From Gemmatimonadota bacterium (GTDB lineage: Bacteria > Gemmatimonadota > Gemmatimonadetes > Longimicrobiales > Gaopeijiaceae), in assembly GCA_028874985.1 (NCBI GenBank), contig JAPPGI010000116.1:1-64000 (forward strand): a DNA stretch of 64,000 nucleotides, written 5' to 3'. How positions within the stretch are numbered: position 1 is the first letter of the stretch; the number at the start of each line of letters is the position of its first letter. Positions 11,279-17,710 of the stretch are shown piece by piece. Under the pieces are notes generated by a model. The model was not told where the DNA came from, searched no databases, and worked only from the letters and a program-made list of their open reading frames with translations. Made by a program: the position numbers and the translations under genes.

Positions 11279-11484
11279 TCTCCAGGACCCTGACTGCCGT
11301 TCTGCTCTCCCTCGCCATGCCCGCCGGTCTGCTCGCCCAGGAAGCCGGGCGCGGTGCTTTGCGGCCCTACGTTCACGTTCTCCTCGCCTACGGTGCCGCC
11401 TGGCTCCTGATACTCCTCTGGGTCTGGATGATCGCCCGGAACCTAAAGCGTGCGGGTGCGTCCCCGAGGGCCGATGAGGGATAG
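11275..11484 (+). CDS. ccmD: CcmD-like small membrane protein
   Basis: 69 aa, RPYVHVLLAYGAAWLLILLWVWMIARNLKRA; ATGA overlap with ccmC. Confidence 0.6.
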   Translation: MISRTLTAVLLSLAMPAGLLAQEAGRGALRPYVHVLLAYGAAWLLILLWVWMIARNLKRAGASPRADEG

Positions 11485-12919
11485 CGGCGGCGCACCAGGG
11501 GGTTGGCCGCAACCAGCCCGGCGCTCGCGCGGATTCATCCACGGGCTCCTCACCCTTCTTCCCGCCCTCACGCTCCTGGTCCCGGCGGGGACCGCCCAGA
11601 CGGTGGGGACGATGCCCGGCACCCTCCGCTACGGCTCGGGGCTCCTCGACATCCCGGTGGCTTCGGTGCTCCCGCACATGGCCTTCACCGCCACCTGGTC
11701 TGGCTTCCGGGTGTCGGTCGCGGAGACGGTGGTCCCGGACGATCCGGGGGCGACGGTCCCTCCGGATCGGCGATTCGAACGCTGGTTCTCCGACGGCTCG
11801 CTCGCGCTCGGACTCTTCGGCCGCCTGGAAGTCGGCACGAGCCTGCAACACTTCGCGGGTGCGGACCGGGGTGGCAAGGTACTGGGAACGTTCGGGCGCC
11901 TGGCCCTGATTCGGCCGCGAGGCCACGGCCTCGGGCTGGCCGCGGGATTCCGCCATCTCACCTCGCCTTCATTCGGCGACGAGTCCGGCGAGGTTCAGCC
12001 CAACCGGCTCGGCTACCCGGACTGGCGCGTGACCCGAGAGGCGGCCGCCGACGGGAAGTTCGGCGGCAACTTCAGCCCCTACCTTGTGGCGACGGCCCTG
12101 CTCCCGGGTGTTGCCGCCGGACCCGCCACCCATGACGTGACGCTGCACCTGGGGTGGGGCGGGGGACTCTTTTCGGCCGGGCCGGAACTTGATTTCTACC
12201 AGGACGCCAACTCCGGCGGCATATTCGGCGGAGCCGCCATCCACTACGGCCTCGGGGGCGGACGCCTGCTGAACCTGATGGCGGATTTCAACGGCTTCGA
12301 CGCCAACGCCGGCGTGCAACTCGACTTGGGCGGGGTCCGGCTGGGGGCCTTCGCCCTGGGACTCCAGCACGACGGCACATCCACCTTCCGTTCCCGCAAG
12401 TTCGGCCTGCTCGGTTCGGTGGTGTTCTGCGGGGGGCGGCGGACTCTGTGCCGTGGCGAGCGGAAACCCGCCCCCGACACGGTTACGCTCCCGGCACCGC
12501 CGCCCGACACCGTGGTGATCGTGCGAGAGACCGCGGCGGGAGTGACCGAAGCGCCGGAGGGGACGCCGGAGACACTTTGCCTCGCGACCGGAAAGGGCGT
12601 GGAAGTACGGGTGACCACCGCGGGAGACACGCTTGTCGGGCCCTCGTGGGCGTCGATCGGGGAGCTGCGGCCCGGCCTGGTGTTCGCGGGCAGCTACGCG
12701 GGGGACCGCGCATGGTTCATCGCGGACGAACCCGTACGTTTCGAAGATCGCCTGTACGCGGGAACGGGCGGCGACATGCGGCTGAACTGCGACGAGATCG
12801 TGCGCGTCGGGGAATACGCGGGCGTGCCGGTCTTCGCGGACCGCTCGGCGGAGCCTCCGCTCGAGAATGTGCATGTGCCACGGCGGCCCGGCATCTGGCG
12901 GACATACCGGCACCGCTGA
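11474..12919 (+). CDS. secreted hypothetical protein, possibly beta-barrel-like
   Basis: Signal peptide ending PAGTAQ; Gly/aromatic-rich alternating strands in the N-terminal two thirds. Confidence 0.6.
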   Translation: MRDSGGAPGGWPQPARRSRGFIHGLLTLLPALTLLVPAGTAQTVGTMPGTLRYGSGLLDIPVASVLPHMAFTATWSGFRVSVAETVVPDDPGATVPPDRRFERWFSDGSLALGLFGRLEVGTSLQHFAGADRGGKVLGTFGRLALIRPRGHGLGLAAGFRHLTSPSFGDESGEVQPNRLGYPDWRVTREAAADGKFGGNFSPYLVATALLPGVAAGPATHDVTLHLGWGGGLFSAGPELDFYQDANSGGIFGGAAIHYGLGGGRLLNLMADFNGFDANAGVQLDLGGVRLGAFALGLQHDGTSTFRSRKFGLLGSVVFCGGRRTLCRGERKPAPDTVTLPAPPPDTVVIVRETAAGVTEAPEGTPETLCLATGKGVEVRVTTAGDTLVGPSWASIGELRPGLVFAGSYAGDRAWFIADEPVRFEDRLYAGTGGDMRLNCDEIVRVGEYAGVPVFADRSAEPPLENVHVPRRPGIWRTYRHR

Positions 12920-13031
12920 ACTCGAAGCAGGGGGTGGCGCGCTGCCCGAAGGGTCCATGTCGTTACCTTCATGAACCGCCCTCGGCGCTTCGCGGTGGAG
13001 AGGACGACACCTGGGTTGAGGAGGCTGGAAC

Positions 13032-14340
13032 ATGAGGACTACGAGGATGTCACCCTGCAACGGAACACTCCGGAGGACCATCCTGCCGGGGGCCGTGCTA
13101 CTACTCTGGGGATGCGCCGACCTGGCCCTGGAAGCCGATCGAATCCCGACCGAGCTGGCCATCCTTCCCGATCACGGCCGGTTTGCGTTGGCGGAACCGG
13201 AACAACTGGCGATCGTCGTGAAGGACCAGAACGGCAAGTTCATGCGGGTTCCACGCTGGGCGCCGCCGATCTGGAAGGTGTCGGACGACCTGGTGGCGGA
13301 AGTGGGCCGGGACGGAACGTTGAACACGATGGACAACGGCTGGGTGTCCGTCACGGCCCGGTTGGCCGACCTGACGGCGAATGCGCGCTTCTGCATCACT
13401 TCCGGCCGGACCACCATCGAAGCGCCCGCGATCTATCTGACCCAGGCTGCACAGGGCCTGGACAACACGACATCTCTGATAGCGGGCCGGCCGGCGCTCC
13501 TGCGGATCTTCATGATTCAGGATCGGGCCAGCGACCTTGAACTTGAAGTTCAGGTCACTCCGCATCATCCTGGTTCCCACCATCTTGCTCCCGGCGCCTG
13601 ACTCTTCGGTATTCGACTGGACGGACGGAGTGAACCCCGACAGTGAGCAGCTGCGCCTGTCCAGGACCATCCTGCCGGTGGGAGACATGGAGGTCGAGGT
13701 CCACGAAACCCATTTCACCAACCTGGAATTGCGGACCATTGTCGACTGGATCCACTGGCGTGGCGAAATCGAGGTCCTTTACGTGCACGAAGGTGGCCGC
13801 GGCTACTACTACGGGGTGGTGGGCGAGCCGGCCTATGGCGCCCAAGGGCTCGCCAACATCGGCTACCCGGTGAGCGTGGGGACGGGCGTCGACCTACATC
13901 CACGAGCACGAAGTGGGACACACGATGAGTCTGTACCACGCCGCGTGCGGCAACGCCCCCACGCCGGACCCGAACTATCCCTACGGCAAGGGGTCCATCG
14001 GAGTCTGGGGATACGACATCGCCGAGGGCCGGCTGCTGGATCCGGATCTCTACACGGACGTGATGAGCTACTGCCATCCCAGGTGGATCAGCGACTACCA
14101 GTTCAGCCGGGCGCTGAGCCACCGGCTCGACGGAGACGGCGGAATCGACCACGATGCGGATGCGGGCTCGTAGGGGATGAAGAACACGAAGCTGCCTCCG
14201 CCGGCGATGGCCGCGGAGAGTGTCGCGTGGAATGCGCCATGGGTTTACGTTAGGTTGGTGCCGGCGTCCGTGACCTTCTCCGCCGTCATGATTTCGGCCG
14301 CCCCTGTGGCCGGGACCCAGGGGACAGCCGGCGGAGGATC
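13032..14340 (+). pseudogene. degenerate metzincin-like lipoprotein, paralogue of the downstream gene
   Basis: LLLWGCADLALEADRIPTEL..., IILVPTILLPAPDSSVF, GYYYGVVGEPAYG, HEVGHTMSLYH spread over three ORFs in different frames; internal segment missing; inverted 39-bp fragment at 14164-14202. Confidence 0.75.
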
Positions 14341-14433
14341 GGAACGAGGAGAGTGTCGGAGGGTATCTTAGGAGTTCAAGGCTGGCCCCCATTTGTCGTC
14401 GGGGATGAGTGCTTACTGCGAGGAGGCGGAAAC

Positions 14434-16287
14434 ATGAAGGAGACGGGGACGCGCCCGAGGAAGAGGGACTTGGTGAAGACGTTGCTGCCGGGGATGGTTC
14501 TGCTCTGGGGCTGTGCCGATCTGGCCATGGAAGCGGACCGGATACCCACGGAGGTGACGCTTTCCCCCGATGCCGGCCTCTTTACGGTGGGGGAACCGAC
14601 GAAGCTGGAACTCACCGTCAGCGATCAGAACGGCGAAGTCATGCCGGTTCCCGGTTGGACGGCTCCGACATGGGAGGTGTCCGACAGGTCCGTCGCGGAA
14701 CTGAGCCGGGACGGCATGCTGGGCACGCTGACGGGACAATCGGGCGGGTGGGTCACGGTCAGGGCGAAGCTGGCCGGGCTGGAGGACGATGCGCGTTTCC
14801 GCATGAATCCCGACCGAATCGGTTTGACCGCGCCGGTCATCTACGTGAACCAGGTCACGCAGAACCGGGAGGGCACCGTACGACTCATCGCGGGCCGGCC
14901 CGGGTTGCTGCGGGTCTTCGTGGTGGGTGACCAGGTCAACTGGCTGGAGCCCCCGTCGGTCGCGGTCACGCTGTCGCACGGGAACGACGTGGTCTTCGAG
15001 CAGCTTCTCCCGCCCGAGACGGGGAACATTCCCACCGAGGTCAACGAGTCGAATCTGATAGGGTCCTACGACGCCGTGATTCCCGGCTCCGCGATCAGGC
15101 CCGGCGTCCGCTTGGTGGTGGAACTCGATCCGGACGGGATCGTTCCACTTGCCGAGGGGAGCCAGCTTCGGTATCCGGCCCAGGGTTCGATGGAACTCGA
15201 AGTGGTGGAGCCGCCCGTGTACCGCATCATCCTGGTCCCGACCATCTCACGCCCGGCCCCGGACTCGGCGGTCTTCGCATGGGTGGACGGAGTGAACCCG
15301 GACAGCGAGCAGATGCGCCTTGCCAGGACCATTCTCCCGGTGGCGGCGATGGAGGTGGAGGTCCGCGAGACCTACTTCACCAACCTCAATCTGCGAAGCT
15401 TCGGCACCTGGCTCCTGTGGCGAAACGAAATCGGGGTCCTCTACGAGCAGGAGGGCAAGCGCGGCTACTACTACGGGGTCGTGAGCCGGAACCTGTTGGG
15501 CGTTGCCGGGATCGCGAACTTCGCCTATCCGGTGAGTGTCGGCTCCGACGTCGACTACGTCCACACGCACGAAGTGGGACACACCATGGGTCTGTGGCAC
15601 GCCCCCTGCGGCGGTGCCGGGGGGCCGGATCCGGAATACCCCTACGGCGGAGGGCTCATCGGAGTATGGGGATATGACGTTGCCGGGAGCCGGTTGCTGG
15701 ATCCGGCGAGCTACGCGGACATAATGGGCTACTGCTTCCAGCGAGCCTGGATCAGCGACTTCCAGTTCAACAAGTCGATGACGCACCGGCTGAGCGGAGA
15801 CGGCGGGATCAACCACGGTCCGGAACCCGCGGCTTCCGGCGGGCCGGAACGGGGCGAGATGCTCGTGGTCTGGGGCGCGGTCCGGGACGGGCGCCTGATG
15901 CTCGAGCCGGCGTTCGTTCTGGACGGGCCGGTGCTGCTCCCGGAGGCGGGCGGTCCCTACCGGGTCGACGGGCTGGGCGCGGAAGGCGAGACGAGGTTCT
16001 CGCTCTCGTTCACGCCGACTCCGCTCGCGTATGGTGGAGGCAGCTTCGTGTTCTTCATCCCCTACGAGCCCGAGTGGGCCGACAACCTGGACCGGATGGT
16101 CCTCACCGGGCCGGAGGGGGAGACCACCGTAACGCGCGACGGCCCGTCCGAGATGGCCGTCGTCGCGGATCGGGCCACGGGGAGAATCCGGGCCATCATC
16201 CGAGACTGGGACGGAGGTCCGCTCCCCGGCGAGGCGGGCGCGAACGTCACGGTCACCAGGGGAATACCGGCGGGCGGGCTGCGGTAA
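14434..16287 (+). CDS. secreted metzincin-type zinc metalloprotease lipoprotein
   Basis: Lipobox-like MVLLWGCADL; HEVGHTMGLWH matches HEXXHXXGXXH; downstream DIMGYC compatible with a Met-turn; RBS GAGGAGG. Confidence 0.75.
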   Translation: MKETGTRPRKRDLVKTLLPGMVLLWGCADLAMEADRIPTEVTLSPDAGLFTVGEPTKLELTVSDQNGEVMPVPGWTAPTWEVSDRSVAELSRDGMLGTLTGQSGGWVTVRAKLAGLEDDARFRMNPDRIGLTAPVIYVNQVTQNREGTVRLIAGRPGLLRVFVVGDQVNWLEPPSVAVTLSHGNDVVFEQLLPPETGNIPTEVNESNLIGSYDAVIPGSAIRPGVRLVVELDPDGIVPLAEGSQLRYPAQGSMELEVVEPPVYRIILVPTISRPAPDSAVFAWVDGVNPDSEQMRLARTILPVAAMEVEVRETYFTNLNLRSFGTWLLWRNEIGVLYEQEGKRGYYYGVVSRNLLGVAGIANFAYPVSVGSDVDYVHTHEVGHTMGLWHAPCGGAGGPDPEYPYGGGLIGVWGYDVAGSRLLDPASYADIMGYCFQRAWISDFQFNKSMTHRLSGDGGINHGPEPAASGGPERGEMLVVWGAVRDGRLMLEPAFVLDGPVLLPEAGGPYRVDGLGAEGETRFSLSFTPTPLAYGGGSFVFFIPYEPEWADNLDRMVLTGPEGETTVTRDGPSEMAVVADRATGRIRAIIRDWDGGPLPGEAGANVTVTRGIPAGGLR

Positions 16288-16333: not shown

Positions 16334-17710
16334 CTACCCCATCCCCAGCCACCCCGCCACCTCGCCCGTCAGATCCGCCGCCGTATCGACATCCGACTCC
16401 ACCTCGAGCAGGGTGACCCGAAGCCCTCGTTCGCGCGCGCGCGCCGCGGTCTCCCGGAGGACCGCTTCGGTGCTCCACGCGATTCCCCTGAACAGCGCGG
16501 GGCAGGGCTCCCGCAATGCCATGAGGTAGTAACCCCCGTCGCGGGAAGGCCCCAGCACGACATCGGCAGTGTCGAGCGCGGCCAGCGCGCGCGCGACCGT
16601 GGCCGCGCCGACGGCGGGCGTGTCCGTGCCGATCACCACGGCGCGGCGGGAGCACTCTAACGCCCGGGCGAACATCCGCGAAATGCGTTCGCCGAGATCC
16701 CCCGCGCCCTGCTCCCAAAACCGCTCCGGCCCGGGACCGAGCCAGTCCCGGACTTCGGCCTCGGCGCCGGGGGGGTCGTAGCATACGGTCACGATTGCGG
16801 GCGCTTCCGCCACCCGGTCGACGATCAGACGGCCCATGCGCCGGTACAGGGCCGCGGCCGCATCGTGGTCGGGCGACCCGGCGCGCCCCAGGCTCCGCGC
16901 CAGGCGCGTCTTGACCTCGCCGGGCCGGGGGGCCTTGGCGAAGACCAGGAGGGTCGCTTCGGTGGCGTCGCCGGCGATTTCCGCGTCGTCCGCCCCGGCG
17001 CCCCCGCGTGTTCGCGCCGGATACCTCGCCGCCAGATCGCTCGGCCGGGTACCCGCCAGAAACCGGCTGACGAGTCCCACATTTCGCAACCATGCGTTCA
17101 GGCGGCCTTCCTCCTCGTAGCGGCGCGGGCTGGTGGAGATCGCGGCCGGAAGACGGATCAGCCGTCCCGCGCGCCGGAGCCGCCGGTTCAGGACGACGTC
17201 CTCCATGATCGGCTCGTCGGGGTAGGGGCCCGACGCCAGGAAGAGATCGCGCCGGATCAGGAGACCCTGGTCGCCGTAGACCAGGCTCGACAGCCACTCC
17301 CGCACCCGCTGCCCGCGCTCGATGATCCGGTAGTGGAAGTGGGGGTGGGAAATCAGCAGCCTGAAGTACCCGGCCTCGGGGCGGTCGGCGCGCACATGGT
17401 CCTCGATCGCCCGCAGGGCCCCTTCTCCCAGCCTCGAGTCGGCGTGCACGAAGAACAGCCACGGCGACCGCAGCCCGCGGGCCCCCGCGTTCATCTGCCG
17501 GGCACGGCCCCGCCGGCTCCTCATCACCCCGGCGCCCGCGGCCCTCGCGGCCGCGACCGTCCCGTCGCGCGAGCCTCCGTCCACCACCAGCACGACGTGT
17601 TCCAGCCTCAACCTCGACAGGTCCTCCAGCAGGTGTGACAGGTAGTCCGCCTCGTCCAGCGCCGGGACGACCACTCCGACCTTGGCGGACGGGGTGCCGG
17701 CCGGCAGCAT
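16334..17710 (-). CDS. fused family-2 glycosyltransferase (TIGR04283-like) and DUF2064/TIGR04282-like transferase
   Basis: N-terminal VVVPALDEADYLSHLLEDLSRL...VDGGSRDGT...QMNAGA; C-terminal LLVFAKAPRPGEVKTRLARSLG...VVIGTDTPAV...GPSRDGGYYLMAL. Confidence 0.85.
   Translation of the reverse strand: MLPAGTPSAKVGVVVPALDEADYLSHLLEDLSRLRLEHVVLVVDGGSRDGTVAAARAAGAGVMRSRRGRARQMNAGARGLRSPWLFFVHADSRLGEGALRAIEDHVRADRPEAGYFRLLISHPHFHYRIIERGQRVREWLSSLVYGDQGLLIRRDLFLASGPYPDEPIMEDVVLNRRLRRAGRLIRLPAAISTSPRRYEEEGRLNAWLRNVGLVSRFLAGTRPSDLAARYPARTRGGAGADDAEIAGDATEATLLVFAKAPRPGEVKTRLARSLGRAGSPDHDAAAALYRRMGRLIVDRVAEAPAIVTVCYDPPGAEAEVRDWLGPGPERFWEQGAGDLGERISRMFARALECSRRAVVIGTDTPAVGAATVARALAALDTADVVLGPSRDGGYYLMALREPCPALFRGIAWSTEAVLRETAARARERGLRVTLLEVESDVDTAADLTGEVAGWLGMG

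Follow-up and report, generated by a model that had tools for sequence, protein, structure and literature searches.

A decayed metzincin gene (P1) and an intact paralogue (P2) stand side by side in the genome of a Gemmatimonadota bacterium, and the broken end of the first carries a "patch" of DNA that reads as the reverse complement of a segment of the second. The patch is probably a templated inverted insertion: a short piece of P2, copied backwards and left where a break in P1 was repaired. Both genes lie in the window (the whole stretch of DNA that was analysed, 64,000 nucleotides long), part of a 118-kb contig in a draft genome of 230 contigs. The relatives that carry names, RHO3_bin_71 and COS4_bin_2, are metagenome-assembled Gemmatimonadota, which we take from their bin names to be sponge-associated.

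The patch, the broken gene and its intact neighbour

The first-pass annotation of this DNA had reported an inverted match (38/39, 14164-14202 against 16033-16071), which is borne out and slightly lengthened: the longest ungapped match, 39/40, pairs 14163-14202 with the reverse complement of 16033-16072, and it contains a shorter core that is exact (see the table). The patch and its P2 counterpart are the only exact inverted match of at least 20 nt in the 64-kb window; ten Markov-1 windows, serving as the null, gave maxima of 17-21 nt. When the genome is searched with the patch segment, P2 is the best match and the remaining paralogues follow at ~80-90%. In short, the template of which the patch is the reverse complement can be identified, and a copy of it is kept in intact P2.

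Table. Coordinates of the features at the P1-P2 locus (positions in the window)
Feature	Position	Strand	Basis
P1, decayed metzincin paralogue	13032..14165	+	blastn to P2/family; tblastn frames against intact syntenic orthologue; synteny with L042
Internal P1 deletion point, ~250 bp relative to orthologue, with frame change	13559..13560	+	alignment jump L042 4485 -> 4732 across P1 13558/13560
CGG overlap, left junction	14163..14165	+	compatible with P1 direct homology (orthologue GCGGATGCGGAC) and with inverted patch
Inverted patch, exact core	14163..14199	-	37/37 = reverse complement of 16036-16072
Stop TAG from patch, in last open frame of P1	14171..14173	+	translation and sequence
Spacer between patch and P2	14200..14433	.	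no convincing homologue
P2, intact M66-like metzincin, 617 aa, patch source	14434..16287	+	ORF; Pfam PF10462
Patch source in P2	16036..16072	+	inside codons for GGGSFVFFIPYEP

The description of P1 as a decayed metzincin copy likewise holds, from 13032 to ~14165. What it shares with the intact orthologue is split over three frames (13029-13559, 13561-13893 and 13880-14164, by tblastn), and one of the breaks is accompanied by the deletion listed in the table. The N-terminal and catalytic parts are retained; the C-terminal part, beyond the P2-equivalent of 15824, is gone. The direct homology of P1 stops only a few bases from the patch, CGG being common to both, and the last P1 frame terminates inside the patch, at the TAG that the patch supplies. 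The overlap at this left junction amounts to these 3 nt only; on the right side the patch borders the spacer. As a separate observation, the short sequence TCGTNGGGGATGA occurs both at 14168-14180 and at 14396-14408.

P2 is assigned to its family by a match to the Pfam model that scores 28.3 bits, above the gathering score of 20.6, with just 55 residues matched. Its translation carries HEVGHTMGLWH, which fits the zinc motif HExxHxxGxxH; searches of the P2 sequence against NCBIfam and PDB gave no match. Informative sites along P2 (14884-16287) strongly resemble the branch of the family found on contig C73 as far as ~15633/15634 and are mixed after that point: P2 may be a mosaic. A chimera with the C-terminal part of P1 was considered, and a tree of the C-terminal region gives P2 no clear place.

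The genome holds nine further long matches to P2, of which contig C73 has three in tandem and contig C141 four, and family matches are present in 22/22 of the other genomes of the genus that were searched. The two clusters are M66-like tandem arrays: a three-gene array with very short spacers, ~13 nt between aligned copies (L034, G000:C73:25963-31380), and a four-gene array (L035, G000:C141:9820-17423). Large expansions of this family mark the genus, and presence or absence at the same site differs among its species.

Probable resident copy and donor

Which of the two copies belongs to the site? At locus L042 (G017:C146) of a related species, one intact gene occupies the place of P1, flanked as here by the 11450-12919 gene on the upstream side and the 16334-17710 glycosyltransferase on the downstream side. 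P1 is closest to this L042 gene over part of the N-terminal region (74-81% identity, against 57-71% for the others), and a tree of the core places P1 with the G17 genes (support 0.85) and P2 apart from them, in a branch with G17_102 and G14_32 (0.95). For these reasons (the one intact gene with the same flanks, the closeness of P1 to it and the grouping in the tree) P1 is most likely the resident copy, with P2 a member of a different branch of the family beside it; by the same sequence comparisons the two are not recent duplicates. At the same site in G018, G020 and G003 there is other DNA, with no detectable metzincin.

The surroundings have peculiarities of their own. Near the start of the 11450-12919 frame, at 11517-11556, lies a sequence of which ~30-40 nt recur, 88-97% identical, at eight further sites spread over seven contigs and in relatives too; it may be a dispersed repeat or a shared leader. 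Upstream of P1, a 35-nt stretch at 12955-12990 has further copies, 91% identical on contig C48 and in G014 but 83% identical in G003, and is possibly a shared regulatory element. The downstream neighbour, on the minus strand, is a fused glycosyltransferase with TIGR04283 and TIGR04282 (arsenosugar biosynthesis) domains, both above their cut-offs.

The donor can be asked for in the same comparative manner. Aligned directly (blastn), P1 and P2 are 68% identical in the N-terminal part and 76% in the core, that is, they differ by ~24-32%. Among 961 gap-free P1 windows of 37 nt, the fewest differences from P2 are 4 and the median is 10; the patch has 0. It differs from G17syn, the syntenic orthologue of P1, at two sites (where G17syn has GTC the patch has GTG, and where G17syn has GTC again the patch has ATC), and at both the patch agrees with P2; for the remaining full-length paralogues in the comparison the differences number 4-12. 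G014 also has, on contig C32, a partial copy with GTG and ATC, so that these states diagnose the P2 branch and not P2 alone. This part of the gene is conserved (G17syn and P2 agree at 35/37 of the segment), and P1's own copy could have resembled P2; because of this conservation the two diagnostic bases are stronger evidence than the 37/37 match. Position also counts: P1 homology to P2 ends at ~15824, the patch comes from 16036-16072, and its counterpart in P1 would lie ~210 nt past that break, so that an inversion in place would need large deletions as well.

The DNA beyond the patch, and how the patch arose

What follows the patch on its right bears directly on mechanism. According to the first-pass annotation the end of the gene appears to take up again in direct orientation (CCCAGGGGACAGCCGGCGGAGG, a string that lies at 14316-14337), and this part of its account finds no support: the resemblance is statistically indistinguishable from chance. 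The 22-mer matches 16256-16273 at 15/18, with p ~0.04 when it is singled out and 0.17 over the whole of 14200-14433; family profiles of the gene end give p 0.04-0.25 in the CCCAGGGGACAGCCGGCGGAGG region, varying with the choice of stretch; and a rival placement at the hinge 15834-15860, just as weak and incompatible with the first, has p ~0.07. Compared with the paralogues on both strands by pairwise alignment, shuffles and family profiles, 14200-14433 yields nothing beyond shuffled controls, and it has no match in the spacers at the syntenic locus or in the window, or among plasmids. Against the genome and 120 other genomes of the family nothing convincing emerges, only many equally weak short hits, from which it appears that such E-values are inflated in this GC-rich DNA; a single 50-nt match among phages (E 5e-3) is judged to be chance. 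A pattern scan of viral contigs gave no match.

A mobile insert was considered on account of a 14-nt direct repeat in the spacer (13/14; 14212-14225 and 14345-14358; p 0.01) and rejected: the repeat lies inside the spacer and does not flank the patch. Its 11-mer GGAGAGTGTCG has three genome occurrences only.

The proposed sequence of events is as follows. A break or stalled fork would have arisen in the C-terminal part of resident P1; ~37 nt would have been copied from the opposite strand of P2, already present downstream; and the broken P1 end, now bearing the copied patch, would have been joined to DNA further downstream that is unrelated. One side could be accounted for by a polymerase that switched template at the CGG overlap and the other by end joining, and the C-terminal loss of P1 and the patch would then be one event. 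A patch placed at the break in homology, with CGG shared, is the pattern to be expected if synthesis jumped to a nearby paralogue and copied its opposite strand. No original sequence detectably resumes after the patch in 14200-14433, as it would in a two-switch (four-point) patch; nor is a reversed segment held between intact flanks, as in a simple inversion, the left flank ending at P2-equivalent 15824 and no right flank being detected. Since 14200-14433 lacks significant gene homology, the event was not a clean inversion, and it was not a clean patch made by two switches either; since the resumed gene end is indistinguishable from chance, nothing points to a closed inversion flanked on each side by intact gene. 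The best fit is a deletion whose end was joined to unrelated DNA, a short inverted insertion lying at the junction.

The original suggestion had been "local inversion or template switch". Its second half is favoured by the 37/37 match, the P2-branch states and the location at the P1 break; inversion of P1 DNA is disfavoured by the 24-32% divergence and the ~210-nt offset. The inversion could be rescued by supposing that the C-terminal segment of P1 was converted to P2 before it was inverted in place, its flanks being deleted or decaying afterwards. Tandem paralogues are able to convert each other, and a segment as conserved in general as this one lends itself to the argument, but the scheme requires a conversion, an inversion and at least two deletions; P1 is still ~24% different from P2 right up to the break, and no C-terminal part is detectable in 14200-14433 on either strand. 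It is unlikely. The practical doubt that remains, likewise unlikely, is a chimeric join made in the library or during assembly of a metagenome-assembled genome. The draft state of this genome and the metagenomic origin of its relatives speak for such an artefact, as does the fact that inverted chimeras are a known product of amplified DNA. Against it, two joins within 40 nt would both need to be false, and the P1 truncation falls at the same point, with unrelated sequence after it; moreover, typical reads and assembly word sizes exceed 37 nt, so that a repeat of this length should not mislead assembly by itself.

If templated insertion at a repaired break produced the patch, has the patch since been put to use? 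Inverted repeats of 37-40 nt around 14203-16032 might flip P2 on and off, or the P1 transcript might act as antisense to P2 mRNA. The arms are indeed exact over 37 nt and ~1.84 kb apart, and a plus-strand RNA that reads across the patch would, over that segment, be antisense to the mRNA of P2. However, no such repeat exists at any family locus read (none of the others has an exact inverted match of at least 20 nt), and an Rfam search found no match and a simple scan no promoter-like site. That a functional element of either kind is present is very improbable, and it is just as hard to believe that the patch has been retained for antisense RNA from the dead gene's transcript against P2, or for switching of P2 by inversion. 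Most likely the patch is real but ordinary, a mutational scar that has no function of its own and sits in a gene already broken.

Comparison with known systems

The patch is of little wider consequence, and the fast-changing tandem metzincin family in these presumably sponge-associated Gemmatimonadota is the more interesting subject. The value of the patch is as a readable case of one bacterial repair or copying accident templated by a diverged paralogue: it is the divergence of the template that lets donor and extent be read from diagnostic bases.

Bacterial quasipalindrome template switching (the Ripley model, as cited in PMC7954356) likewise makes a perfect inverted repeat by a strand switch; the present case differs in that no pre-existing imperfect P1/P2 palindrome was found at the site. 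Template switches of the four-point model mostly yield single inverted repeats (PMC7954356), and the patch resembles them as a reverse-complement copy of a template in cis that has left a single inverted repeat; here the distance is ~1.8 kb rather than that of one local cluster, and no point 4 was found. Short inverted templated insertions at breaks, mostly ~5-34 bp, are documented in yeast (PMC11724301). The case described here is that of a bacterium, with a diverged paralogue ~1.8 kb away as the template, and is known as a past scar only; it has in common with the yeast insertions a short inverted copy of a template at a break and, possibly, short microhomology on one side. That a process of the yeast type made the patch is our inference.
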